A stretch of DNA of 64,000 bases from Stenotrophomonas maltophilia (GTDB lineage Bacteria > Pseudomonadota > Gammaproteobacteria > Xanthomonadales > Xanthomonadaceae). Positions 6,011 through 62,335 of this stretch are shown one piece after another. Every line of letters begins with the position of its first letter. The first letter of the stretch is position 1. Location of the stretch: positions 3,728,750 through 3,792,749 of the forward strand of contig NZ_CP033877.1 in NCBI RefSeq assembly GCF_006970445.1, given 5' to 3'. Below the pieces are notes generated by a model, which saw nothing but the letters and a program-made list of their open reading frames with translations, had not been told where the DNA came from and did not search any database. The position numbers were made by a program, and so were the translations under genes.

Positions 6011-6082
6011 GTAGTCGCCAACCTTGGTTGGCGCCGATGAACCGAGGCCGGTCCCGGGGAGCCAACCAAGGTTGGCGACTAC
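6011..6082. repeat. SMAG-type palindromic repeat dimer
   Basis: Two inverted copies of a short palindrome: GTAGTCGCCAACCTTGGTTG on the plus strand and its reverse complement ending in CTAC. The GTAG head and imperfect hairpin are the hallmarks of SMAG elements. It lies between two convergent genes, and its right end overlaps the stop codon of the O-antigen ligase-like gene. Confidence 0.88.
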
Positions 6083-13502: not shown

Positions 13503-13577
13503 GTAGAGCCGGCCGCTGGCCGGCAACCCCAATGATGTCCAGGTACACGACGGCAGCCGGCCAGCGGCCGGCTCTAC
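13503..13577. repeat. SMAG repeat dimer
   Basis: GTAGAGCCGGCCGCTGGCCG at the left and its inverted copy ending GGCTCTAC at the right, about 30 bp apart. It sits in the 424-bp gap between the convergent metallopeptidase and maeB genes. Apart from the two SMAG units and a terminator hairpin I see nothing else in that gap. Confidence 0.88.
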
Positions 13578-21726: not shown

Positions 21727-21796
21727 TTCCAGCCAACGGCACAGCCCCTCCTGTGGGTGGTGTCTGGTTGCTCGTGAAAAGCAAAAGCCGTGGGTG

Positions 21797-21900
21797 GGCC
21801 GGTCGGGTTGGGTGCGCGGGGGACGCCGTGAATCCATCCCTGGAGGCTTGGCAGCCGCATCCATGCGGCTGACACCCCCGCGAACCCAACCCGACCGGCC
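21797..21900 (-). repeat. Long hairpin element A
   Basis: Arms 21797-21822 and 21875-21900 are complementary over 26 positions with one mismatch. The 52-nt loop contains, on the minus strand, the small palindrome GCCGCATGGATGCGGC followed by AAGCCTCCAGGGATGG and ACGGCGT. The strand given is that on which the core reads in the same sense as in copies B and D. Confidence 0.85.
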
Positions 21901-21979
21901 TCTGACAGATTTCGGTGGCCTGCCACCCACGGAGAAGAAAAAGAAGATCAAAAGCGGATCGCGCGCTGCGCTTGCTCGT

Positions 21980-22047
21980 GTAAAGCCGAGCCCATGCTCG
22001 GCTTCGCGGACCGGCCGCAAAGCAGCCGAGCGTGGGCTCGGCTCTAC
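21980..22047. repeat. SMAG-type dimer at the centre of module 1
   Basis: Left unit AAGCCGAGCCCATGCTCGGC preceded by GTA, right unit AGCCGAGCGTGGGCTCGGCT ending CTAC, inverted to each other about 25 bp apart. Confidence 0.8.
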
Positions 22048-22050
22048 AAA

Positions 22051-22072
22051 AGGCAGCCTGCCAGGCTGCCTT
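22051..22072 (+). terminator. Terminator-like hairpin in module 1
   Basis: Stem GGCAGCC / GGCTGCC with a 5-nt loop, preceded by AAAA and followed by TTTGCTTTT. It could stop transcription from both convergent genes. Confidence 0.7.
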
Positions 22073-22126
22073 TGCTTTTGATCTTCTTTTCTCTTCCGTG
22101 GATGGATGCGCACGGAACCTGTCCGT

Positions 22127-22230
22127 GGCCGGGCAGGTGGGCTGCGCAGGGGCGTGAGCCGCATGGATGCGGCGACCGAGCTTACATGGACGTACTTGCA
22201 GCGGCCCCTGCGCAGTCCACCTGCCCGGCC
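22127..22230 (+). repeat. Long hairpin element B
   Basis: Arms 22127-22153 and 22204-22230 (27 nt) pair with one mismatch (G-A). The 50-nt loop reads GCCGCATGGATGCGGC, then CCGAGCTTACATGGACG and TACTTGCAGCG. The arm sequence differs from those of copies A, C and D, although all are GC-rich with a GGnnGG rhythm. Confidence 0.85.
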
Positions 22231-22287
22231 TCACTCATGAACTACTCTACGTGTCCACCCACGAGGGGCTGCGCCGTTGGCTGGAAA

Positions 22288-22938
22288 CTACAACCCGATG
22301 CCCGCGTCGCCCTCAGGCTCCAGCGCCTTCACCAGCACCGCCGCCTGCGTTCGGCTATGGCACTCGAGTTTTTTCAGGATGGCGGTGACATGCACCTTCA
22401 CCGTGTTCTCGGCCAACCCCAGCGTATAAGCAATCTGCTTGTTGAGCAGGCCATCGGCCAGGCACAGCAGCACGCGGAACTGCTGCGGGGTCAGTTGGGC
22501 CAGGCGGCTGGCCAGCAGCGCGTCGGCCTCCGAACGCTCGGCGGCCATCGCCGGGAACCACAGGCCACCATCGAGCACCGCCTGCACGGCCTCGCCGATG
22601 GTCTCGGCCGGGGCCGACTTCGGGATGAAACCGGCCGCGCCGAACTGCTGCGCGCGGCGGATCACCCGCGGGTGGTCGTTGGACGAGAGGATCACCACCG
22701 GGATGTCCGGATGCGAGCCACGCACGTGCAGCAGCGCGGAAAAACCGTGCGCACCAGGCATCGTCAGGTCGAGCAGCACCAGGTCCACATCCGGGTGCGC
22801 GTCGAGGGCTTCGGCCAGCGCATCGGCGCTGGCGACCTCGCGCACCTGCGCCAGCGGCAGGCTCTGCCGCAAGGACTGCACCACCGCCGAGCGCAGCAGC
22901 GGATGGTCATCGGCGATCAGGATGGTGTATTCGCTCAT
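22288..22938 (-). CDS. NarL/LuxR-type response regulator
   Basis: A 216-residue regulator. The receiver domain carries acidic Asp10-Asp11, phospho-acceptor Asp57 (LVLLDLTMPG) and Lys in PKSAP. The C-terminal LuxR helix-turn-helix is LTPQQFRVLLCLADGLLNKQIAYTLGLAENTVKVHV. It ends opposite the hybrid kinase gene and is its likely partner. It also lies 28 bp after the solute-binding protein gene on the same strand, so it may be transcribed with the tctD-tctE cluster, linking the C4 and tricarboxylate systems. Confidence 0.9.
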   Translation of the reverse strand: MSEYTILIADDHPLLRSAVVQSLRQSLPLAQVREVASADALAEALDAHPDVDLVLLDLTMPGAHGFSALLHVRGSHPDIPVVILSSNDHPRVIRRAQQFGAAGFIPKSAPAETIGEAVQAVLDGGLWFPAMAAERSEADALLASRLAQLTPQQFRVLLCLADGLLNKQIAYTLGLAENTVKVHVTAILKKLECHSRTQAAVLVKALEPEGDAGIGL

Positions 22939-22966
22939 GCCGCCATTGTACGGGCAGGCCGGAGCC

Positions 22967-24022
22967 TCAGCGCCCCGCCGGCTCGACGCTGCTGCGCCAG
23001 GCGTCGAGGAACTGGCGGCGCTTGAGCGCGTCCAGGTACACCAGCAGACCCGGGCCGAGCTGGATCGGACGCCGGCTGCGGCCGGGCGCATCGTCGCCAC
23101 GTGCGTTGCCGGTCACGATCGGCATCAGCCGCGCCTCACGCGACAGCACCTGCTGGCCACGCGGCGACAGCAGGTAATCGAGGAAGCGCCGCGCTTCTTC
23201 CGGGTGTGGGCCGGTGCGGGGGATCACCGCGGTGCGCAGCACCACCAGCGTGTAGTCCTCGGGCTCGACGATGGCCAGTGGCGCGCCGGCATCGACACGT
23301 GCCTGCGCATAGGAGCCGAGCACGTTGTAGACCAGCGACAACTCGCCGCTGGCCACCTTGTCCAGCAGCACGCCGGTGCGCTCTTCGCGCACCACGTCGT
23401 TGTCGCCGAGCGCCCCCAGCAGCGCGCCGGCAATGCTGCCGCGCTGCGCATCCTGGGTTGCCAGCAGGTAGCCGACACTGCTGCGCTCAATGTCATAGGT
23501 GCCCACCTTTCCGCGTAGCGGTGCACCTTCAGCACGCAGCCGGTCGAGCAGCTGGCGGCGCGTGTGCGGCACCTTTGCCGAAGGCATCGCACGGGTGTTG
23601 TAGACCATCACCACCGGCTCATAGCTGATGCCGAACGCCTCGTTGCGCCACTGTGCCCAGGCCGGCAACGCAGCGGTCTGCGCCGAACGGTGCGGCAGCG
23701 CATGGCCATCGTTGACCAGCTTGGTCTGCAGGTCCATGCCACTGGAGATCAGCAGGTCCGGCGATGCCGGCCCGACGCGGTCGTGCAGGTACCGCGCGTA
23801 CAGGTCCTGGGTGATGATGTCCTCGTACACCACCTCAGTGCCCGGGTGCATGCGCTGGTAGTCGGCGATGACCACCGCGAACACTTCGATGTCGGTGGTG
23901 CCGTGGATGCGCAGCTGCTCGGTGGCGGCTCCCTGCGCAGGGAAACGGCGCACATCGCCCGGTGCGGCCAGCACCGGCAGGGCCAGCAGCAGGGCAACGG
24001 CCGTGGCGAACAGGCGGATCAT
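22967..24022 (-). CDS. Periplasmic solute-binding protein (type 2, AfuA/FbpA-like)
   Basis: A 351-residue exported binding protein with signal peptide MIRLFATAVALLLALPVLAA. The central part has the extracellular solute-binding fold (YEDIITQDLYARYL, DLLISSGMDLQTKLV, FGISYEPVVMVYNTRAM, ending SPRGQQVLSREARLMPI). Its ATG overlaps the kinase stop (ATGA), so it is translated with the sensor. No ABC permease or ATPase is encoded nearby. A role as ligand-presenting partner of the TctE-like kinase, rather than transport, is therefore plausible. Confidence 0.85.
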   Translation of the reverse strand: MIRLFATAVALLLALPVLAAPGDVRRFPAQGAATEQLRIHGTTDIEVFAVVIADYQRMHPGTEVVYEDIITQDLYARYLHDRVGPASPDLLISSGMDLQTKLVNDGHALPHRSAQTAALPAWAQWRNEAFGISYEPVVMVYNTRAMPSAKVPHTRRQLLDRLRAEGAPLRGKVGTYDIERSSVGYLLATQDAQRGSIAGALLGALGDNDVVREERTGVLLDKVASGELSLVYNVLGSYAQARVDAGAPLAIVEPEDYTLVVLRTAVIPRTGPHPEEARRFLDYLLSPRGQQVLSREARLMPIVTGNARGDDAPGRSRRPIQLGPGLLVYLDALKRRQFLDAWRSSVEPAGR

Positions 24023-25422
24023 GAACTGCTCCGTGGCAGGCGGATGGTGGCGATCAGCCCGCCCTGCGGGCGGTTGCTGAGGTCGATGCGGCCGCCATGG
24101 CTGTCGACCACGCGCTTGACGATGGCCAGGCCCAGCCCGGCACCGCCGGATGGCGCGCCTTCGCCACGCGCGAAACGTTCGAATACGCGCTCGGCATCGG
24201 CGGCCGCGATGCCGGCGCCATGGTCGGCGATGGTCAGCACGGCCTGCCCGCCTTCCACGGTCAGGGCGATCTGCAACGGGCCGTCGCCGCCATACTTCAA
24301 TGCGTTGTCGACCAGATTCTTGATCGCCTCGCGCAGCAGCAGTGCATCGCCGTGCACCTGCACAGGTTCGGCGGTCATCGCCAGCTGCACGCGCGGCGCC
24401 GGGCCGGCCTGCGGCAGCGCTTCATGCAGGGCCTGGTGCACGGTCTCGGCCAGGTCCACCGCCGCAAAGCGCTGCAGGTGCGAACGATGGATCACGCTGG
24501 CATCGCTGAGCAGCTGGTTGAGCAGCCGGCTCATGTGGGTGGCGTTACGCTCGATCGCCTGCAGGCTGCGTCGCATGTCCTCCGGGTCGTCGTCGTCCAG
24601 CGCCAACTGCGCCTGTGCACGCAATGCCGCCAACGGCGTACGCATCTGGTGTGCGGCCTCGGCCATGAACGCGCGCAGTGTCTCGTTGCTGCTGGACAGG
24701 CGTTCCATGAAGCGATTCAACGCGGCCACCATCTGGTCCATCTCACGCGGCACGCGGGCATCCAGCGGCTTCAGGTCGGACGGTTCCCGTCGCGACAGCT
24801 CGCGCTCCACCCGCACCAGCGGCCGGAATGCGCGATGCACGCCGAACGCCACCAGCGCCAGCAGCAGCCCGGACAACACACCGATCGCCAACAGCGCGCG
24901 ATTGACCATGTCCTGCGCGACGGCTTCCCGTGCACGCCGGGTCTGGCCAACCTGGACCTGTACCTCGCCCTGCGCCGAGGCGGCGGCGAAGCTGCGGCCG
25001 ACCACCACGAAGCGCACGGTCTCGCCGCTGTAGGGGGCGTCGAACAACTGCGGCTGCGTGCCGGGCCGGCGCGGCGGTGCCGGCAGGTCGCCGTAGCCGG
25101 TGATCAGGTTGCCTCGGTTGTCGGCCACCCGGTAGAACACGCGGTCTTCCGGCGCCATCGCCAGCAGGTCCAGCGCCGCATACGGCAGATCGACCTGCCA
25201 CTGGCCATCGACCAGGGCCACCGAATCGGCAATGGACAGCGCCGAGGACACCAGCAGGTGATCGTAGGATCGGTTGGCGGCGCGCTGGCCATAATCGCGC
25301 GCGGCAAACAGCAGGGCCACTGCGAACACCGCCAGCAGCACGCCGAGGTAGAGCAGCAGCGTGCGCCGCAGCGAACCCGGGGCGGCAGTGGCAGCGCGCG
25401 CGTCAGCCATCGGCGTCGGCAT
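24019..25422 (-). CDS. TctE-like sensor histidine kinase
   Basis: A 467-residue inner-membrane kinase. TM1 is at about 21-41, then a short periplasmic 2CSK-type N-terminal domain (residues 42-175, with ALSIADSVALVDGQWQVDLPYAAL typical of TctE), TM2 at about 178-195 and a HAMP-like linker. The phospho-acceptor is His258 (AEAAHQMRTPLAALRAQ), followed by HATPase motifs (IKNLVDNALKYG, ADHGAGI, GAGLGLAIV). It overlaps the regulator gene by 20 bp and the binding-protein gene by 4 bp. The likely signal is a tricarboxylate such as citrate. Confidence 0.9.
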   Translation of the reverse strand: MPTPMADARAATAAPGSLRRTLLLYLGVLLAVFAVALLFAARDYGQRAANRSYDHLLVSSALSIADSVALVDGQWQVDLPYAALDLLAMAPEDRVFYRVADNRGNLITGYGDLPAPPRRPGTQPQLFDAPYSGETVRFVVVGRSFAAASAQGEVQVQVGQTRRAREAVAQDMVNRALLAIGVLSGLLLALVAFGVHRAFRPLVRVERELSRREPSDLKPLDARVPREMDQMVAALNRFMERLSSSNETLRAFMAEAAHQMRTPLAALRAQAQLALDDDDPEDMRRSLQAIERNATHMSRLLNQLLSDASVIHRSHLQRFAAVDLAETVHQALHEALPQAGPAPRVQLAMTAEPVQVHGDALLLREAIKNLVDNALKYGGDGPLQIALTVEGGQAVLTIADHGAGIAAADAERVFERFARGEGAPSGGAGLGLAIVKRVVDSHGGRIDLSNRPQGGLIATIRLPRSSS

Positions 25423-26092
25423 GGGTATCGCTGGCTTCCAACAGGTAGCCGACGCCGCGCACCGTGGTGATGCGCAGCGGCGCGCCGGCCAGCTTCTTTC
25501 TCAGGCGGCCAACGTACAACTCGATGGCATTCGGGCCCGCTTCGTCATCGAAGCCGAACAGGCCGTTGCCGATCTCGTCCTTGCCGACCACCTGGCCGAG
25601 ACGGCCGACCAGGATCTCCAGCAGGCGGTACTCGCGGTTGGGCAGTTCGATCGGTTCGCCGTCGAGGCTGACCCGGTGCGCAGCGTTGTCGAACTGGAAG
25701 CCGCCGATCTGCACCACTTCGCTGGCCTGGCCTCGCGCACGCCGCAGCAGCACGCGGCAGCGCGCTTCGAACTCGCGGAAATCGAACGGCTTGCCCAGAT
25801 AGTCGTCGGCCCCCACATCCAGCGCCTGCACGCGATCTTCGATGCCATCACGCGCGGTCAACATCAACACTGGCGTGCTGTCACCGCGCTCGCGCATGCC
25901 AGCCAGCACGCGCAGGCCATCGAGCTTGGGCAGGCCGATATCCAGCACCACCAGGTCGAAGCTCTGGTAACGCAGCACGCTGGCGGCGGCCAGTCCATCG
26001 GCCTGCCAGTCCACGGCGTGCCCGCTGCGGCGCATCCGGCGGATGATCGCATCGGCCAGATCCGGATTGTCTTCGACCAGCAGCAGGCGCAT
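25403..26092 (-). CDS. TctD-like OmpR-family response regulator
   Basis: A 229-residue regulator: receiver (acidic ED at residues 7-8, phospho-acceptor Asp51 in LVVLDIGLPKLDGL, Lys in GKPFDFREFEAR) plus winged-helix DNA-binding domain (ELYVGRLRKKLAGAPLRITTVRGVGYLLE). The ATG at 26092 is preferred; upstream residues in frame are not receiver-like. It diverges from the porin-CitMHS operon, which it probably controls, as TctD does for citrate uptake in enterobacteria and pseudomonads. Confidence 0.91.
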   Translation of the reverse strand: MRLLLVEDNPDLADAIIRRMRRSGHAVDWQADGLAAASVLRYQSFDLVVLDIGLPKLDGLRVLAGMRERGDSTPVLMLTARDGIEDRVQALDVGADDYLGKPFDFREFEARCRVLLRRARGQASEVVQIGGFQFDNAAHRVSLDGEPIELPNREYRLLEILVGRLGQVVGKDEIGNGLFGFDDEAGPNAIELYVGRLRKKLAGAPLRITTVRGVGYLLEASDTHADADG

Positions 26093-26298
26093 GGGCACAC
26101 GGGCGGGAGGGGAACCGAATGCTACCGCATGCTGCCTCCGCGCTCGCCGGGCATGGCATGGCGAGCGCAGCGGCCCGCTTTTCGCTGCACCGCACAATCC
26201 GTTGACAGGACGATGACAGCTTGCCCGACCCAGACTGCGGCCGCGCACCGTCCGGTGCCCACGATTGCCGCGCGCCTGGCGCGCACCTGGGAGGGTTT

Positions 26299-27474
26299 GT
26301 GGAATTCACGTTTGCCTGGCGGCGTCCTGCCGCCATGATGGCGCTGGCCGCCCTGTCGGCGCCGGCCTTTGCCGCTGAAGACGACCGTCCGGTCACCGCC
26401 ACCCTCGGTGGCCGCCTGCACCTGGACTTCGCCACCTTCGACAACGACAACCGCGGCACCCCGAACAAGGACGACACCGAGATCCGCCGTGCCTGGCTGG
26501 ACGTGTCGGGCAAGTTCTTCGTGGTCGACTACAAGCTGGAGGCCGACTTCTCCGGCGACCGCGTCGAGGCCAAGGACGTCTACCTGGCACGCAGCTTCGG
26601 CAAGGCCGGCAAGCTGACCGTGGGCCAGTTCAAGCAGTACTTCTCGCTGGATGACCGCACCAGCTCCAACTACGGCAGCTTCCTGGAGCGCGGCAACGCC
26701 GGCACCACGCTGGCGCCGCTGTACCGCCTGGGTGCGTCCTGGCAGGCCAACCCGGGTGACTTCACCTGGGCGGCCAGCCTCTACAGCCTGGAGAGCATCG
26801 ACGCGTGGCAGGTGAAGGGCCGCGCGGCGGGTGGTCGCGTCACCTGGGCGCCCTCGCCCAGCGACGGTGACGTGCTGCACCTGGGCCTGTCGCTGGCCCG
26901 CGAGGCCTACGACAACCCCGGCGCCAATGGCACCCCCGGCCTGAAGATCCGACCACGCCCGGCCGGCCACCTGTCCGACGAAAGCCGCCTGACCCTGGTC
27001 GACTTCTCCGCCGGCCGCGATACCGACGTCAACAAGTGGTCGCTGGAATACGCGCAGGTGCGCGGCCCGCTGTCGTGGCAGGGCGAGTTCAGTGGCGCCA
27101 CCTTCGATGACGGCGCCCAGCGCGGCGACGTGATGGCCGCCTACGGCATGCTCAGCTGGTTCGTCACCGGCGAAAGCCGCGCCTATGACCGCAAGACCGG
27201 CCGCTTCGCGCGGGTGAAGGACATCCGCCACAAGGCCGGTGCCTTCGAAGTGGCGCTGCGCTACGACCAGATGTGGGGCGCGCAGCACCTTGATGGCGCT
27301 CCGGACCTGCGCCGCGGTAGCACCGAAGCGTGGACGCTGGGTGGCAACTGGTACCTGCGCGACAACCTGCGCTTCATGCTCAACGTGATCGAAAGCCGCA
27401 ACCGCGACCGCCTGGCCGGGGTCACGGTGGACCGCACGCGCGCGGTCACCGGACGCCTGCAGTACGACTTCTAA
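26299..27474 (+). CDS. OprO/OprP-type porin (citrate block)
   Basis: A beta-barrel porin of about 390 residues, paralogous to the one at 17848. Features are signal peptide residues ending APAFA-AEDDRP, the OprP-like segment LTVGQFKQYFSLDDRTSS, and a C-terminal aromatic ending (QYDF). The start is uncertain: GTG at 26299 gives a good signal peptide (MEFTFAWRRPAAMM...) but its GGAGGG is only 3 nt away; ATG at 26335 gives a very short leader. It is divergent from tctD and 72 bp upstream of the CitMHS gene. Confidence 0.82.
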   Translation: MEFTFAWRRPAAMMALAALSAPAFAAEDDRPVTATLGGRLHLDFATFDNDNRGTPNKDDTEIRRAWLDVSGKFFVVDYKLEADFSGDRVEAKDVYLARSFGKAGKLTVGQFKQYFSLDDRTSSNYGSFLERGNAGTTLAPLYRLGASWQANPGDFTWAASLYSLESIDAWQVKGRAAGGRVTWAPSPSDGDVLHLGLSLAREAYDNPGANGTPGLKIRPRPAGHLSDESRLTLVDFSAGRDTDVNKWSLEYAQVRGPLSWQGEFSGATFDDGAQRGDVMAAYGMLSWFVTGESRAYDRKTGRFARVKDIRHKAGAFEVALRYDQMWGAQHLDGAPDLRRGSTEAWTLGGNWYLRDNLRFMLNVIESRNRDRLAGVTVDRTRAVTGRLQYDF

Positions 27475-27546
27475 GCCCCACATCCCGGGCACGTCGCCCG
27501 GGCCCCTTCCACTCCCCCACATCCTGTTTTTGCAAGGAGTCCGCAG

Positions 27547-28878
27547 ATGATGCTGAGCATCCTCGGCTTTGGCATGGTCATTACGTTCATGTACTTGATC
27601 ATGAGCAAGCGCCTGTCGCCGCTCGTCGCCCTGATCACCATCCCCATCCTGTTCGCGCTGATCGGTGGCTTCGGCGCCGGCCTCGACGAGATGATGCTGG
27701 AGGGCATCAAGAAGATCGCGCCGACCGGCGTGATGCTGATGTTCGCCATCCTCTACTTCGGGGTCATGATCGATGCCGGCCTGTTCGATCCGCTGGTGCG
27801 GATCATCCTGCGCTTCGTCAAGGGCGATCCGATGAAGATCGTGCTCGGCACCGCCGTGCTGGCGATGCTGATCTCGCTCGATGGTGATGGCTCGACGACC
27901 TACATGATCACCGTCTCGGCGATGCTGCCGCTGTACCAGCGGCTGGGCATGAACGCGCTGAACATGACCTGCGTGACCATCCTCGCCGGCGGCGTGATGA
28001 ACCTGACCCCGTGGGGCGGCCCGACCGCACGCGCGGCCACCGCGCTGCACGTGGACCCGGCCGATGTGTTCGTGCCGCTGATCCCGTCGATGGTGATCGC
28101 CTGTGCCGGCGTGCTGCTGCTGGCCTGGTACCTGGGCCTGAAGGAACGCCGTCGCCTCGGCGTGGTGACCCTGCCCAAGGGCGGCAGCTGGATGGACAAC
28201 AGCGTGTCCGACGACAGCAACCCGCTGCCGACCGTGGAAGACGCCGAAGACATCAAGCGTCCGAAGCTGCTGTGGGTCAACCTGGCCCTGACCGTGGCAC
28301 TGATGACCGCGCTGATCATCGGCGTGCTGCCGATGCCGGTGCTGTTCATGGTCGGCTTCGCCATCGCGCTGGTGATCAACTACCCGAACCTGGCCGAGCA
28401 GCGCCGCCGCGTGGTCAACCACGCCGGCAACGTGCTGTCGGTGGTGTCGCTGATCTTCGCCGCAGGCATCTTCACCGGCATCCTCAACAACACCGGCATG
28501 GTCGAAGCGATGTCGCACAGCTTCCTGGCGGTGATTCCGGAATCCTGGGGCCCGTACCTGGCGGTGATCACGGCCGTGGCATCGATGCCGTTCACCTTCT
28601 TCATGTCCAACGACGCGTTCTACTTCGGCGTGCTGCCGATCCTGTCAGAGGCCGCCGGCAACTACGGCATCACCCCGGTGGAAATGGCGCGCGCCTCGCT
28701 GGCCGGCCAGCCGGTGCACCTGCTCAGCCCGCTGGTGCCGTCCACCTACCTGCTGGTGGGCCTGGCCAAGGTCGAATTCGCCGACCACCAGAAGTTCACC
28801 CTGAAGTGGGCCATCGCCATCTCGATGCTGCTGATGATCGGCAGCCTGCTGTTCGGCCTGTATCCCCTCGCCGCCTGA
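27547..28878 (+). CDS. CitMHS-family citrate:metal-proton symporter
   Basis: A 443-residue inner-membrane transporter for citrate complexed with a divalent metal. About 12 hydrophobic segments are visible, with family signatures SLDGDGSTTYMITVSAMLPL, GGVMNLTPWGGPTARA and MPFTFFMSNDAFYFGVLP. An AAGGAGT ribosome site precedes the ATG. The porin upstream and TctDE-like pair make a complete citrate uptake unit; related xanthomonad transporters have been called CitH. Metal preference cannot be read from sequence. Confidence 0.93.
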   Translation: MMLSILGFGMVITFMYLIMSKRLSPLVALITIPILFALIGGFGAGLDEMMLEGIKKIAPTGVMLMFAILYFGVMIDAGLFDPLVRIILRFVKGDPMKIVLGTAVLAMLISLDGDGSTTYMITVSAMLPLYQRLGMNALNMTCVTILAGGVMNLTPWGGPTARAATALHVDPADVFVPLIPSMVIACAGVLLLAWYLGLKERRRLGVVTLPKGGSWMDNSVSDDSNPLPTVEDAEDIKRPKLLWVNLALTVALMTALIIGVLPMPVLFMVGFAIALVINYPNLAEQRRRVVNHAGNVLSVVSLIFAAGIFTGILNNTGMVEAMSHSFLAVIPESWGPYLAVITAVASMPFTFFMSNDAFYFGVLPILSEAAGNYGITPVEMARASLAGQPVHLLSPLVPSTYLLVGLAKVEFADHQKFTLKWAIAISMLLMIGSLLFGLYPLAA

Positions 28879-28902
28879 CCCCTTACCCAGGAGCCTTCTG
28901 CA

Positions 28903-29643
28903 ATGACGCTTCGAATCGCTTACGTCACCAGCGGCATGGGCAGTGTCGGTACTGCCATCTGCCAGAGCCTGGCCCGCAGCGGCCACACCGTGGTTGCCGG
29001 CTGCGCGCCGAACTCGCCGCGCAAGGCCAACTGGCTGCGCGAGCAGCGCGAACAGGGCTTCGACTTCATCGCCTCCGAAGGCAACGCGACCGACTGGGCC
29101 TCGACCAGCGCCGCGTTCGCCAAGGTGCGCGCCGAAGTCGGTGAAGTGGATGTACTGGTCAACAACTCCGGCGGCAGCCGCGACCTGCTGTTCCGGCAGA
29201 TGACGGTGGAGGACTGGAACGCGGTGATCGCCTCCAACCTCAATTCGCTGTTCAACCTGACCAAGCAGGTGGTCGACGGCATGGCCACGCGCGGCTGGGG
29301 CCGCATCATCAACATCGGTTCGGTCAGTGCCCACAAGGGCCAGATCGGGCAGGTGAACTACGCCACCGCCAAGGCCGCGATGCATGGCTTCAGCCGTGCG
29401 CTGGCGGCGGAAGTGGCCTCGCGCGGGGTCACCGTCAACACGCTGTCGCCGGGCTACATCGCCAGCCAGGCGATCAGCAGCTTCCCGCCGGACGTGCTGG
29501 ACCGGCTGGCCGCGTCGGTGCCGGTGCGCCGCCTCGGCCGCCCCGAGGAAGTGGCCGGCCTGTGCGCGTGGCTGGCTTCGGACGAAGCCTCGTACGTGAC
29601 CGGCGCCGACTATCCGGTCAACGGTGGCCTGTACATGGGTTGA
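28903..29643 (+). CDS. Acetoacetyl-CoA reductase-like short-chain dehydrogenase
   Basis: A 246-residue classical SDR, about 45% of which is recognisable PhaB/PhbB-type pattern by eye: nucleotide-binding TSGMGSVGT (a variant of TGGxGGIG), NNSGG in place of NNAG, catalytic Ser in NIGSVSAHKGQIGQVNYATAK (Tyr-x3-Lys) and VNTLSPGYI. Such enzymes reduce acetoacetyl-CoA with NADPH for polyhydroxybutyrate. It follows the citrate transporter by 24 bp and shares its operon and terminator. No PHB synthase is in the window, so the substrate is an inference. Confidence 0.82.
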   Translation: MTLRIAYVTSGMGSVGTAICQSLARSGHTVVAGCAPNSPRKANWLREQREQGFDFIASEGNATDWASTSAAFAKVRAEVGEVDVLVNNSGGSRDLLFRQMTVEDWNAVIASNLNSLFNLTKQVVDGMATRGWGRIINIGSVSAHKGQIGQVNYATAKAAMHGFSRALAAEVASRGVTVNTLSPGYIASQAISSFPPDVLDRLAASVPVRRLGRPEEVAGLCAWLASDEASYVTGADYPVNGGLYMG

Positions 29644-29689
29644 GCCCGCCTCCACGCAACGCGTGGACCGCCTCCCCCACGGAGTGCGC

Positions 29690-29735
29690 GGGGCCGGTGA
29701 ACCTTCGCTTGCGAGGGGGATCCGGCCCCTTTTTT
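29690..29735 (+). terminator. Strong Rho-independent terminator of the citrate operon
   Basis: Stem GGGGCCGG / CCGGCCCC with an inner TCGC/GCGA pairing, followed by six T. It lies 46 bp after the SDR stop. Confidence 0.9.
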
Positions 29736-29851
29736 GTTTCTGCATTTTCGGGACGCATTGCCCGATACATCGGCAGAACCGGTGCTATACCTGCCAACGC
29801 TCGCTGAGCCCGATGGATGAACGGCCGGAATCGCGGATCAAGGAGGTTGGC

Positions 29852-30376
29852 ATGCGTGCATTGCTGAGTGCGCTTCTTGTGGTCGCCACCCCGCCACTGG
29901 CGGCCACCCCACCTGCTGCCAGTGCGGATGAGGCGGATGCAACATGGCGGCTGGTGGAGCGCTGGTCCTTGCAGCTGTCACGCTCTGACCTTGTCGCGCA
30001 GCTATCACCTCTGGTCCCGGTCGGCTCGCGTTCGGAAGCAAGAATGGGCCGGGGCGACAGCGCCACCATCGATCTGGCGCCATTCGTGGTCGCTGGGAGG
30101 ATCAAGGGGCCTTCTGGCCAGATCTACACCGATGCGTCGGGGCGAATCATCAAAGGCATCACGCTGTCGCTGGGCGGCGCCTGCATCTCGCGAAGGCAGA
30201 TGGGTCGTCGCTACCCCGACTTCAACGTCCTTTCCGTCCCGTCCGGGCATAGTCTGGACGAGTCGACGGTGTTCGGCACGGTAGTGAACGGCATCCAGAT
30301 CGGGTTCTCATTCTCCGAACATGATCGTGACTGCATGGACCAGCTCAAATTCGGCTGGCCCGGTGAGCGCTTCTGA
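29852..30376 (+). CDS. Exported protein of unknown function
   Basis: A 174-residue protein I do not recognise. It starts with a Sec signal peptide (MRALLSALLVVATPPLAATPPAASA) after a strong AAGGAGG ribosome site 6 nt upstream. The mature part has two cysteines (GGACIS and RDCMDQ) that could form a periplasmic disulfide. It stands alone between the citrate operon and the TonB receptor. Confidence 0.75.
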   Translation: MRALLSALLVVATPPLAATPPAASADEADATWRLVERWSLQLSRSDLVAQLSPLVPVGSRSEARMGRGDSATIDLAPFVVAGRIKGPSGQIYTDASGRIIKGITLSLGGACISRRQMGRRYPDFNVLSVPSGHSLDESTVFGTVVNGIQIGFSFSEHDRDCMDQLKFGWPGERF

Positions 30377-30465
30377 TTCCCACCGGCATACCGCCATGAC
30401 GAACATGTTGCAGGACACGCACCACCGCCCTGCACCGTTCGTTGGTTTTTCGTAAAGAAGGTTTC

Positions 30466-30555
30466 ATGTTCCGTTCGCATAGTGGCCATGCACCGCGCAC
30501 CCGTGCCGGTGACCACCCCCAATGCAACGGACCACCATGCAGACCCGACACCTGA
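30466..30555 (+). CDS. Candidate 29-residue leader ORF overlapping the receptor start
   Basis: Reads MFRSHSGHAPRTRAGDHP and ends at TGA 30553-30555. It has a good ribosome site AAGAAGG 5 nt before its ATG, whereas the receptor ATGs at 30522 and 30537 have none. Ribosomes finishing this frame would terminate 16-33 nt past the receptor start and could re-initiate. This may be a translational coupling device or chance. Confidence 0.3.
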   Translation: MFRSHSGHAPRTRAGDHPQCNGPPCRPDT

Positions 30556-32834
30556 CGATCGCCGTGGCGATCGCGCTCTCCGCCGCCGCCAGCGCCCACG
30601 CCGCCACCACCGCCGATACCGGCGCCAGCACCGATGCCGCGCTGAGCGCGCAGACGCTGGATACCGTCTCCGTGATCGGCCAGGGCGAGACCCGCCAGGT
30701 GCAGCGCATCACCACCGTCGACAAGCAGGTGCTGCCGCCTGGCACCAGTGGCCAGAAGATCCTCGACCGCCTGCCGGGCGTGTCGGTGCAGTCCAATGAT
30801 GCCTTCGGTGCCAACGAGGAATCGCAGACCATCAGCCTGCGTGGCTTCGACAAGAGCCGCCTCGGCTACACGCTGGACGGCATCCCGCTGGGCGACAACA
30901 GCTACGGCAACTACAACGGCCTGAGCATTTCCCGCGCGATCATCGCCGAGAACCTGGCTGGCGCCGAACTGTCGCAGGGCATCGGCTCGCTGGGCGTGGC
31001 CTCGACCAGCAACCTGGGTGGCACCATCCAGTATTTCTCGATGGACCCGTCCACCGAATTCGGTGGCCGCGCCAGCGTCACCGTCGGCGACAACAGCCAG
31101 CGCCGTGGCTATCTGCGCGTGGACACCGGCGACATCAACGGCTTCTCGGCCTATGTGTCCGGCGTGCACCAGGACCAGGACATGTGGGCCGCGCCGTACC
31201 AGAACCAGACCACCCGCCAGTTCAATGCCAAGGCGGTGTGGAATGTCGGCGACCACCGCTTCGGTGCGTTCGTGGCGACCTCGCGCGCCAGCCAGGCCAA
31301 CTACGCATACCTGTCCAAGGACATGCTGGCCCGCGGCCTGGGCTATGACTGGAACATCTACGCGCCGGACTGGGACCGCGCCGTCGCTGCCGCGTACTGC
31401 GCGCCGGGCACCTACAACAAGGCGCGCTGCGCGTTCAGCGGCGGCGTCAACAGCATCGACGATGCGTACTACCAGAGCCGTGCGCTGCGCGACGACAACC
31501 TGTACTCGGTCGATGCCGACCTGCGCCTGGGCGAGCAGGGCCGCCTGAAGCTGCTGGCCTACCATCACGACAACCGTGGCCAGGGCCACTGGTGGGCACC
31601 GGGCCAGCCGTCCTACCCGGGCACCGACAAGATGCTGCCGATCTCGATCCGCAGCACCAACTACACGATCAACCGCGATGGCCTGACCGCCGCACTGTCG
31701 TGGACGGTGGGCATCCACGAGCTGGAAGCCGGCCTGTGGTACGAGCAGAACGACCATAACGTGTCGCGCAACTTCTACTACATCAGCGGCCCGTTCCTGG
31801 ACGACCTGTACCTGAAGAACCCGGACCGCCTGCTGTTCAACCAGGACTTCGACATCCGCACGCGCCAGTTCTACGTGCAGGACCGCATGCGCTTCCTGGA
31901 CCAGCGCCTGACCGTGGACGTGGGCATCAAGAGCCCCAACACCCGCATGCGCGCCACCGCGCAGCCCGGTGTGGAAACCAGCATTGCATCAGGCACGCTG
32001 ACCGCCAAGGAATCGGTGCTGCCGCAGGTGGGCCTGGGCTTCAAGCTCAACGCCAACAATGAGCTGTTTGCCTCCTACGCCGAGAACATCGCCGCCTTCG
32101 TCGGCGGTGGCAGCGGCGGCCCGCTGCAGGTGTCGCCGGAATCGTTCGCGGCCAGCGCCGGGCTGGAGCCGGAGAAGTCCAAGAGCCTGGAAGCCGGCTT
32201 CCGTACCTTCGGCGAGAAGTACCAGGCGTCGATCGCGGCCTACAACGTCAAGTTCGACAACCGCCTGCTGTCGCTGAACCCGTGCTCGAGCATCGAGGTC
32301 GGCACGCGTCCGGAGTGCGTGACGCGCTTCATCAACGTCGGTTCGGTGAAGAGCTACGGCGCAGAACTGACCTTCATCTTCAAGCCGATCGATGGCCTGC
32401 AGTGGTACAACGCGCTGTCCTGGAACAAGACCACCTACGAGGACGACTACCTGTCCGGCGGCGCGGTGGTGCCGGTGGCCGGCAAGATCACGGTGGATAC
32501 GCCGCAGCGCATGGCCTCCAGTGAGATCAGCTGGAACCGCGACGGTTTCTTCGCCAGCCTGCGTGCCAAGTACACCGGCAAGCGCTACTACACCTACACC
32601 AACGACCAGTCGGTGCCGGGCGTGACCACCTTCGACGCCGGTGCGGGCTACGATTTCGGCCCGGGCCTGGGCCTGCGCAACGTGCGGGTGTCGTTGAACG
32701 CGACCAACCTGACCAACAAGCGCTACGCCGGCCAGCTGAGCTCGTTCGCACCGACCGATCCGAAGGGCACGCGCTATGCGATCCATGCGAGCGCACCGCG
32801 GCAGCTGTTCATGACGGTGGCGGCGGAGTTCTAG
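30537..32834 (+). CDS. TonB-dependent outer-membrane receptor
   Basis: A 765-residue receptor. It has a signal peptide (MQTRHLTIAVAIALSAAASAHA), a TonB-box-like stretch (LDTVSVIG), a plug domain (LPGVSVQSNDAFGANEESQTISLRGFDKSRL, in family form) and a 22-strand-type barrel ending in the aromatic VAAEF. The ATG at 30537 gives the clean signal peptide; ATG at 30522 adds five residues. No Fur-like box or substrate-processing genes sit beside it, so the ligand is unknown. An 8-bp hairpin (32847-32878) and composite repeat module 2 follow. Confidence 0.92.
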   Translation: MQTRHLTIAVAIALSAAASAHAATTADTGASTDAALSAQTLDTVSVIGQGETRQVQRITTVDKQVLPPGTSGQKILDRLPGVSVQSNDAFGANEESQTISLRGFDKSRLGYTLDGIPLGDNSYGNYNGLSISRAIIAENLAGAELSQGIGSLGVASTSNLGGTIQYFSMDPSTEFGGRASVTVGDNSQRRGYLRVDTGDINGFSAYVSGVHQDQDMWAAPYQNQTTRQFNAKAVWNVGDHRFGAFVATSRASQANYAYLSKDMLARGLGYDWNIYAPDWDRAVAAAYCAPGTYNKARCAFSGGVNSIDDAYYQSRALRDDNLYSVDADLRLGEQGRLKLLAYHHDNRGQGHWWAPGQPSYPGTDKMLPISIRSTNYTINRDGLTAALSWTVGIHELEAGLWYEQNDHNVSRNFYYISGPFLDDLYLKNPDRLLFNQDFDIRTRQFYVQDRMRFLDQRLTVDVGIKSPNTRMRATAQPGVETSIASGTLTAKESVLPQVGLGFKLNANNELFASYAENIAAFVGGGSGGPLQVSPESFAASAGLEPEKSKSLEAGFRTFGEKYQASIAAYNVKFDNRLLSLNPCSSIEVGTRPECVTRFINVGSVKSYGAELTFIFKPIDGLQWYNALSWNKTTYEDDYLSGGAVVPVAGKITVDTPQRMASSEISWNRDGFFASLRAKYTGKRYYTYTNDQSVPGVTTFDAGAGYDFGPGLGLRNVRVSLNATNLTNKRYAGQLSSFAPTDPKGTRYAIHASAPRQLFMTVAAEF

Positions 32835-32846
32835 GTCGAAAGCGTT

Positions 32847-32878
32847 GCCCCGCGGCGTCTTGATTATCGTCGCGGGGC
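32847..32878 (+). terminator. Hairpin after the TonB receptor gene
   Basis: Stem GCCCCGCG / CGCGGGGC with a 16-nt loop, 13 bp after the stop. There is no T-run, so termination would need the following repeat module. Confidence 0.5.
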
Positions 32879-32982
32879 AGGGCCGGATGGGCCGGCGCAG
32901 GACACGCCGTAAACCCATCCATGGGGGCTCGATGGCGCCATCCATGGCGCCAACGGTCCTGCGCCGGCCCATCCGACCCTGC
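32877..32982 (-). repeat. Long hairpin element C
   Basis: Arms 32877-32902 and 32957-32982 (26 nt) pair throughout except one G-T wobble. On the minus strand the 54-nt loop reads GGCGCCATGGATGGCGCC, then GAGCCCCCATGGATGG and TTTACGGCGTG, homologous to copies A, B and D. Confidence 0.85.
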
Positions 32983-33017
32983 TCGACGGTTTCCCGCGCC
33001 ACGGTGCGGAGGGCAAA

Positions 33018-33072
33018 GAAGAGCAAAAGCAAAGAGCCGGGCAATGCCCGGCTCTTTGCTTTTCAAGCTCTT
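33018..33072. terminator. Central bidirectional hairpin of module 2
   Basis: GAGCCGGGC AAT GCCCGGCTC flanked by AGCAAAAGCAAA on the left and TTTGCTTTTC on the right, so both strands show a GC stem followed by T-rich DNA. It lies between convergent genes and between hairpins C and D. The gap 32835-33270 holds these elements and no gene I can support. Confidence 0.8.
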
Positions 33073-33124
33073 CAAGCGCAATCCCTCTGGTGGACTGCTG
33101 GCCGTCTCGCGGGAAATTGTCTGG

Positions 33125-33228
33125 AGCGGGGGGCTTGCGCTGGCTAGGACCGTCTACGGCATGGATGCCGTGGCCGAGCCTACAGGGACGTACTTGCGGC
33201 GTGTCCTGGCCAGCGCAAGCCCCCCGCT
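33125..33228 (+). repeat. Long hairpin element D
   Basis: Arms 33125-33150 and 33203-33228 (26 nt) pair except one T-G wobble. The 52-nt loop reads ACGGCATGGATGCCGT, then CCGAGCCTACAGGGACG and TACTTGCGGCGT. It is inverted relative to element C. Confidence 0.85.
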
Positions 33229-34555: not shown

Positions 34556-34631
34556 GTAGGTGCCAACCTGGGTTGGCATCCGCCGGCGGCGGGCTTCGAA
34601 CACATCCGTGCCAACCAAGGTTGGCACCTAC
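34556..34631. repeat. SMAG repeat dimer
   Basis: GTAGGTGCCAACCTGGGTTG at the left, inverted copy CCAACCAAGGTTGGCACCTAC-like unit at the right. It lies 32 bp upstream of the QEGLA gene, one of the few palindromes here not at a tail-to-tail junction. Confidence 0.87.
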
Positions 34632-40395: not shown

Positions 40396-40463
40396 GAAAA
40401 AGGGGACGGAGGGGATTAAGTCGTTTTGCCACAAACGACTTAATCCCCTCCGTCCCCTTTTTC
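40396..40463. repeat. Perfect 31-bp inverted repeat, bidirectional terminator
   Basis: Arms 40396-40426 and 40433-40463 are exact complements with a 6-nt loop: GAAAAAGGGGACGGAGG... and its complement ending CCTTTTTC. It fills the gap between two convergent genes and touches the DUF924 stop codon. A second copy with the same arm sequence is at 54897. Confidence 0.9.
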
Positions 40464-46964: not shown

Positions 46965-47024
46965 GTAGATGCCAACCTTGGTTGGCGCTTCTTAAAAAAG
47001 CTGCCAACCAAGGTTGGCAACTAC
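46965..47024. repeat. SMAG repeat dimer (first of two adjacent)
   Basis: GTAGATGCCAACCTTGGTTG and its inverted partner ending CTAC, separated by an A-rich spacer. It begins 12 bp after the small protein gene. Confidence 0.88.
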
Positions 47025-47035
47025 CGGGGCACACG

Positions 47036-47100
47036 GTAGTGCCGGCCGCTGGCCGGCAACCGCAACATCCATGGAGGTGCCGGCCAGCGGCCGGCACTAC
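47036..47100. repeat. SMAG repeat dimer (second), overlapping a stop codon
   Basis: GTAGTGCCGGCCGCTGGCCG at the left and the inverted unit ending GCACTAC at the right. Its last four bases contain the TAG stop of the outer-membrane efflux gene, read on the minus strand. Confidence 0.9.
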
Positions 47101-54896: not shown

Positions 54897-54975
54897 AAAA
54901 AAAAAAGGGGACGGAGGGGATTAAGTCGTTTGCGGCACAACGGCAAATGCGACTTAATCCCCTCCGTCACCTTTT
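54897..54975. repeat. Second copy of the GGGGACGGAGGGG inverted repeat
   Basis: Left arm AAAAGGGGACGGAGGGGATT... and right arm ending CCCCTCCGTCACCTTTTC share the sequence of the palindrome at 40396, with a longer, imperfect apex. It lies 7 bp past the fghA stop and is probably its terminator. Confidence 0.85.
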
Positions 54976-62230: not shown

Positions 62231-62335
62231 CATCCACGCGTGGCGTGGATCTACTGTGTGCGACGGCGTCCATGCATCGCGGGGGTCAACATCTCCATGC
62301 GGCGATGGTCAGTAGATCCACGCCATGCGTGGATG
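62231..62335. repeat. Pair of SMAG units, tail-out arrangement
   Basis: Unit 1 (62231-62254) is CATCCACGCGTGGCGTGGAT followed by CTAC; unit 2 (62312-62335) is GTAGATCCACGCCATGCGTGG. The GTAG heads face each other, opposite to the other SMAG dimers here. It fills the gap between convergent tetR and lysR genes. Confidence 0.8.

Follow-up and report, generated by a model that had tools for sequence, protein, structure and literature searches.

What kind of element keeps long self-complementary arms while the sequence of those arms changes? The question is raised by four hairpins, E1 to E4, in a 64,000-nucleotide (nt) stretch of the Stenotrophomonas maltophilia genome (the window; positions 3,728,750-3,792,749 of the genome, a single contig of 4,549,249 bases). 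A preliminary description of the window had reported arms of 26-27 bp with one imperfect pair apiece and homologous loops of about 50-54 nt; all four hairpins are present as described, and comparison confirms the homology of the loops. The four belong to a widespread family of hairpins, folded in one strand, whose arms vary freely and whose two GGA loops keep a fixed register, and this family is unnamed as far as was searched. The strand that displays GGA in the loops is termed the R strand in this paper. In Gammaproteobacteria the global regulator CsrA/RsmA is usually antagonised by small RNAs (sRNAs) encoded by single genes. The reading preferred here, to which a little under an even chance is given, is that of a dispersed structured element which acts as R-strand RNA and holds one CsrA/RsmA dimer.

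Size and distribution of the hairpin family

The first 30 loci and the window supplied 38 distinct copies, and the covariance model was built from 34 of these, four with broken arms being left out. At least 130 places were found with it in the source genome; all genome-scan copy counts are lower bounds, the candidates scored numbering 150 for the source genome, 43 for the genus and 12 for the class. A pattern of the core matched 85 places in the source genome and 0 for a reversed control, and 5 of the 85 are absent from the 130. In this genome 484 kb at G000:C1:2132709-2616522, perhaps the terminus region, carry no copy (p ~0.006 as the largest gap among 87 clusters).

The preliminary description knew four copies; further ones in related genomes were recovered in the genus, named-genome and class scans. 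The family is present in 75 of 91 genus genomes, in 13 of 60 genomes of the family sample, and in 80 of the 370 genomes of the class sample, or 68 of its 272 genera. All 25 positive genomes among the 299 of the phylum sample come from the same class, the 274 misses not being sorted by class. The named-genome scan gave at least 119 stretches, and the genera among the matches listed are Stenotrophomonas, Xanthomonas, Marinobacter, Halopseudomonas, Rheinheimera, Alteromonas, Shewanella, Moritella, Idiomarina, Microbulbifer, Methylotuvimicrobium and Ectothiorhodospira. Not every match to the pattern is a complete element: of 66 in the named records outside Stenotrophomonas, 49 have good arms. Three stretches were found among 2.9 million viral contigs, and blastn against plasmids and phages gave no match in a weak test with a single 64-base core as query.

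No Rfam family reached its gathering score in the window and 10 loci; permissive matches to microRNA, Ysr224 and PrrB_RsmZ lay far under the curated scores and were dismissed as chance. No name for the family, and no match to six exact core strings, was found in the open literature, subscription papers and figures being outside this coverage.

Structure and covariation

The sequences themselves establish the family, its structure, its strand bias, its motifs and their register. Each copy measures about 104 nt and consists of an arm of about 25-30 bp enclosing a core of about 52 nt with two hairpins, H2 and H1. The order on the R strand is 5' arm, Y-G-U, H2, C-R-A, H1, G-Y, 3' arm, and H1 reads GCY-YMC, loop ANGGAY, GKR, a five-nt bulge YUYRC, and RGC. 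When E1 to E4 were folded as RNA, z scores of -8.2 to -10.2 were obtained on both strands, and 0 of 200 shuffles folded as well.

In the 34-copy set, two-sided change occurs at 30 of 40 pairs, with a covariation score of 0.554 against 0.169 in shuffles. In a set of 59 sequences (58 of the 60 sequences of one collection plus one window copy, Stenotrophomonas included), two-sided change occurs at 25 of 29 pairs, 94.6% of cells are paired, and the score reaches 0.829, compared with 0.206 for shuffles and no more than 0.140 when partners are slid. Two of five covariation measures are indistinct from the shuffles, which retain highly variable columns: two-sided pairs number 25 (shuffles 23.5) and further pair types 81 (shuffles 77.8). 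At pair Y15-R44, C-G is found 41 times and U-A 18 times across the 59 sequences.

Change of arms at single loci

Comparison of the E3/E4 gap across 30 genus loci indicates that the arms change on both sides in place. Slot A holds 16 distinct arm pairs in 24 copies, and their 120 comparisons give 680 two-sided and 180 one-sided positions; slot B holds 15 distinct arm pairs in 23 copies, with 584 two-sided and 212 one-sided positions in 105 comparisons, all such pairwise counts being of non-independent events. Thus arm sequence is not conserved at one locus, as simple duplication would have it, and the earlier claim that the pairing and not the arm sequence is kept is borne out by the dominance of two-sided change together with covariation above shuffles. 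Even in five genomes that are 89-100% identical to the window over a 1.6-kb query, as many as 12 of 27 paired positions are different between the arms of one locus.

A further claim, that arms differ strongly between copies, is refined: between genera the arms look unrelated, but inside the source genome not all of them are, and many can be grouped in a small number of arm subfamilies. In other genomes the cores are 79-98% identical between copies; in five genomes the outer arms share 40-71% identity, and in two (G665 and G473) 90-98%.

At the E1/E2 gap, an E1-like arm occupies slot B in L366, L368, L374 and L377, which is read from the alignments as inversion of the E1/E2 pair. E2 is absent from L371-L373, apparently through deletion between near-identical 9-bp repeats and not as an empty site. 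In L005, L008, L369, L370 and L376, H2 and the 3' arm are replaced by another hairpin beginning CTTGCTCG, and L376 resembles a fusion of an E1 half and an E2 half.

The folding strand

If one strand folds by itself, its imperfect arm pairs are predicted to be G-U and not A-C. Identical arms were counted once, and for the first three ratios below the copies with good arms, 254 of 296, were taken. The ratio of G-U to A-C on the R strand is 65:13 in the source genome, 10:2 in the genus loci, 141:18 in the family-sample and named-genome loci with Stenotrophomonas included (p 8e-25), and 71:11 in the named records outside Stenotrophomonas (p 7e-12, 49 arms). Purine-purine exceed pyrimidine-pyrimidine mismatches on the R strand by 99:18 in the family-sample and named-genome loci, in the same direction as the G-U bias. 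For the two orientations in the two chromosome halves of the source genome, the ratios are 20:5, 15:6, 15:2 and 26:2 (106 distinct arms, one element dropped); the bias is present in all four, and therefore replication-strand mutation bias does not explain it. A separate count of 96 G-T and 16 A-C on the R strand comes partly from a model favouring G-U on that strand.

Since imperfect pairs are G-U on the R strand and A-C on the other, it is judged from the arms that the R strand folds as one strand, RNA and single-stranded DNA (ssDNA) being undistinguished by this test. The RNA role, or at least single-strand role, suggested earlier fits this strand evidence. The two mismatches and two G-T wobbles first reported for E1 to E4 are correct for the plus strand, but on the GGA-loop strand G-T stands in E2, E3 and E4 and T-C in E1. 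Fold energies of the R strand and the other strand (kcal/mol) are -80.5 and -76.4 for E2, -85.8 and -81.2 for E3, -81.9 and -72.1 for E4, and -79.8 and -81.0 for E1; the R strand is more stable in three of the four window copies, E1 being the exception.

GGA loops and resemblance to CsrA/RsmA sites

GGA occurs in the predicted H2 loop of 70 of 71 distinct hairpins from the family-sample and named-genome loci, H2 having been left free in the pattern search. The proportion is 44 of 45 for named records outside Stenotrophomonas and 26 of 27 for distinct copies of the source genome. With the H1 loop left free, and in loci that came from models made with GGA-bearing copies, GGA stands at loop positions 3-5 in 109 of 111 source-genome, 39 of 40 genus, 11 of 11 family and 83 of 83 class/phylum copies. 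The first position of this loop is A in 245 of 245 and the second is variable, so that ANGGAY fits in 107, 39, 11 and 79 copies, respectively; the loop is closed by C-G on the R strand. The starts of the two GGA motifs are 23 nt apart in 108 of 110 source-genome, 39 of 40 genus, 10 of 11 family and 81 of 83 class/phylum copies of the same model-derived loci.

According to PMC7652899, the CsrA consensus from systematic evolution of ligands by exponential enrichment (SELEX) is RUACARGGAUGU, with loops mostly of six nt, closed by AC/GU, and N variable, and a CsrA dimer bridges sites 10-63 nt apart with an optimum above 18. The resemblance of the predicted R-strand loops and their 23-nt register to the consensus and bridging range given there is close, and in a two-site test for one CsrA/RsmA dimer the 23 nt falls inside the 10-63 nt range.

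The csrA gene was found in 91 of 91 genus genomes. CsrA scores about 89 bits in 14 of the 16 genus genomes without copies and in four with one copy, and 91.3 in most others; the low-scoring genomes are probably one clade, and therefore a link with the absence of copies is confounded by descent. RsmZ-type RNA (RF00166) exceeded the cut-off in 0 of 41 genus genomes, and likewise in 0 of 14 control genomes.

Genomic placement and pairing

The 130 places in the source genome group into 87 clusters, of which 43 are pairs and 44 are single copies. In 43 of 43 pairs the R strands face outwards, with spacers of 79-229 bp in 42 pairs and 872 bp in one. By flanking genes, as called by a codon-bias gene caller on which all gene contexts here rest, 16 pairs lie between convergent, 22 between co-directional and 5 between divergent genes. 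Divergent pairs, those with R strands facing outwards, account for 19 of 19 in the genus loci and 22 of 23 in ortholog loci. Outside Stenotrophomonas, the named records contain 4 divergent and 4 tandem pairs, and the class/phylum loci contain 1 divergent and 6 tandem pairs, four of the tandem pairs coming from one G665 array. Only in Stenotrophomonas, then, is the divergent arrangement pronounced. The array at L507 (G665:C1:94000-96100) is a head-to-tail series of six copies with a period of about 227 bp.

The inner flanks of source-genome pairs share GACAG / CTGTC, the outer flanks often share CATTCCGTGGGAT and its inverse, and the spacers contain SMAG-like and GGGGTCAGA palindromes. The GGGGTCAGA repeats occur also in 20 of 32 loci of Y1 transposase genes (L391-L420 among them), two repeat families thus being nested in the same intergenic sites. 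The 872-bp pair (L121) was considered as an autonomous element and rejected; it encloses a gene, which we take to be that of 2-keto-3-deoxy-6-phosphogluconate (KDPG) aldolase. Three more pair spacings of 450-5000 bp were observed. The earlier statement that the element is no simple terminator agrees with a test for at least 5 T in the first 8 nt past the R arm, which was positive in 0 of 105 source-genome copies and 1 of 48 copies outside Stenotrophomonas.

Readings of the family

Under the CsrA/RsmA reading, transcription in the R direction, most likely by read-through from neighbouring genes, would yield the hairpin RNA. The long arm would close the core, the two hairpin loops would present GGA 23 nt apart, and one CsrA/RsmA dimer could span both. 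Jointly, the approximately 130 copies might titrate CsrA/RsmA, and each copy might tether the protein to an untranslated region; transcription, binding, and titration or tethering are all steps that we infer from sequence features. A divergent pair would have one R copy made by read-through from whichever side. In a sponge, arm turnover would be free because pairing alone matters. The wider proposal, an unnamed dispersed regulatory system of intergenic copies that each hold one dimer and together form a genome-wide sponge, is offered tentatively, as possible but doubtful. If it is true, the two-site docking repeat would be a CsrA/RsmA antagonist in a dispersed form not looked for before.

Several observations weigh against a CsrA/RsmA role. 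The R direction has no preference relative to genes, 96 named-record copies (Stenotrophomonas included) being 29 sense, 28 antisense, 28 convergent and 11 divergent. The csrA gene is also present in the 16 genus genomes without the family. H1 stems have CC/GG instead of the SELEX AC/GU in 26 of 59 sequences, and highly stable stems may disfavour CsrA, according to PMC7652899. RsmU, a 3' untranslated region RNA of Xanthomonas campestris outside the known families, binds RsmA, and binding persists in a mutant with all four GGA altered (PMC7694677); therefore GGA motifs by themselves do not settle binding. An earlier structure on the non-R strand had a 4-bp helix with G-U pairs that spoke for that strand and against the R-strand reading. 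This helix was dropped because the R alignment supports another helix (GCY/RGC, C-G to U-A) and the arm test favours R.

The main rival is a mobile DNA hairpin, in which an undefined mobilising enzyme would recognise the R strand as folded ssDNA, the GGA loops would be recognition letters, and the divergent pair would be a REPIN-like mobile unit in Stenotrophomonas; we regard it as unlikely, but as deserving serious attention. High copy number with patchy presence, the 43 of 43 divergent pairs, the lack of directional preference relative to genes, and several genomes with near-identical cores and differing outer arms all speak for it, and tolerance of G-T is compatible with ssDNA as well. However, the enzyme expected for a REP-type element, as first proposed, was not linked to the family. 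The source genome has two Y1 genes, and none of 32 Y1 loci (these two and 30 from the genus, which holds more Y1 matches than those compared) contained a strong element match, the best reaching 21.8 bits (E 0.04); this argues against a Y1/RAYT transposase, other enzymes being outside the test. Nor did a gene family stand out when 740 neighbour proteins were compared with each other: the top families are ordinary, and the largest, at 9 loci, is ABC-transporter-like as judged by reading its sequence. The scarcity in viral contigs, the two-sided arm change in place at one locus, and the sole missing copy examined, which looks like a short-repeat deletion and not an empty site, count against mobility too. 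If the ssDNA reading is true, the family would be a widely distributed mobile element for which no enzyme is known. Under either reading, it is a clear case of evolution conserving pairing and not sequence.

An RNA element without CsrA/RsmA, acting in read-through transcripts as a stabiliser or as a substrate of RNase III, its GGA loops being for another protein or a loop contact, would suit the single-strand bias and the RNA duplex of about 25-30 bp per copy as any RNA role does, but it leaves two GGA loops at a single spacing unexplained, and we consider it improbable. A neutral palindrome perfected by templated self-correction, with the core as passenger, would account for the great excess of two-sided over one-sided arm change; it explains neither the conserved core nor the strand bias, which holds in either orientation and in each half of the chromosome, and it has very little probability. 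A protein-bound duplex DNA site or cruciform, with a role for example in chromosome organisation, is consistent with the long palindromes and the 484-kb copy-free stretch, but would expose both strands equally, yet the imperfect arm pairs are strongly strand-asymmetric, by about 6:1 or more, so that this suggestion of the preliminary description is disfavoured and ranks as the least probable of all.

The elements and other repeats in the window

The first divergent pair consists of E1 and E2. E1 (21797-21900, R = minus) has arms at 21797-21822 and 21875-21900, and its loops are, in plus-strand coordinates, H2 at 21859-21864 and H1 at 21836-21841; the covariance model places it at G000:C1:3750546-3750649. 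The spacer (21901-22126) contains a SMAG-like palindrome pair at 21984-22043. E2 (22127-22230, R = plus; covariance-model place 3750876-3750979) has its H2 loop ATGGAT at 22163-22168 and its H1 loop ATGGAC at 22186-22191, the GGA motifs starting at 22165 and 22188, 23 nt apart. Outer flanks, E1, spacer and E2 form a composite unit at 21727-22288, with both gene ends as limits. Similar units occur at other places in genus genomes (matches to query positions 528-1089), for example at G000:C1:3858245-3858769.

In the second divergent pair, E3 (32877-32982, R = minus; covariance-model place 3761627-3761730) has loops H1 at 32917-32922 and H2 at 32940-32945 in plus-strand coordinates. Its spacer from E4 (32983-33124) contains a near-perfect palindrome at 33024-33064. 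E4 (33125-33228, R = plus; covariance-model place 3761874-3761977) has GGA at 33163-33165 in H2 and at 33186-33188 in H1, 23 nt apart.

Other palindromes were also observed in the window. Those with CGGAGGGGATTAAGTCGTTT lie at 40407-40452 and 54910-54968, and CGGAGGGGATTAAGTCGTTT also flanks the Y1 gene at G000:C1:4342806. GC-rich palindromes at 6013-6080, 13505-13575, 34559-34628, 46967-47022 and 47039-47097 resemble SMAG-type REPs. At 62237-62329 lies a hairpin with about 20 bp and a loop of 53 nt that does not match the family by eye.

Comparison with known systems

CsrB/CsrC, RsmX/Y/Z and RsmU are like the present family in presenting GGA in hairpin loops at spacings within the bridging range of one dimer. 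They differ in that each is one sRNA gene with many GGA, whereas the hairpin family consists of many dispersed copies, each with two GGA in a closed three-way core, and in the window and 10 loci it has no Rfam match over cut-off to the CsrB/RsmZ sRNA families. The Csr sRNAs of Alcanivorax and Pseudoalteromonas are different RNAs, as described in PMC9788540 and PMC9927453.

Among repeats, REP, SMAG and REPIN elements with RAYT are alike as intergenic palindromes with many copies and inverted doublets. REP/SMAG units are 20-40 bp with a GTAG tag, whereas the hairpin family is about 104 nt with a structured core, has no GTAG at the ends of the copies read, and has no Y1 gene linked, in keeping with the earlier remark that it is unlike SMAG. 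As to the inverted doublet as a mobile unit, which defines a REPIN, 43 of 43 pairs of the source genome are inverted, and in the named records outside Stenotrophomonas 4 pairs are divergent and 4 tandem. PMC3733652 links the REP and TIR repeats of S. maltophilia with Y1 transposases; the TIR repeats of TIRYT genes are likewise self-complementary, often close-set and from the same genus, but the Y1 loci compared here carry GGGGTCAGA repeats, in 20 of 32, and not the hairpin family. It is unlikely that the 1152 family of that paper is the hairpin family. Miniature inverted-repeat transposable elements (MITEs) such as ERIC and NEMIS are alike in their size of 70-300 bp, intergenic site and non-coding nature. 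Their terminal repeats are conserved between copies, whereas in the hairpin family the arms vary and the core is conserved.

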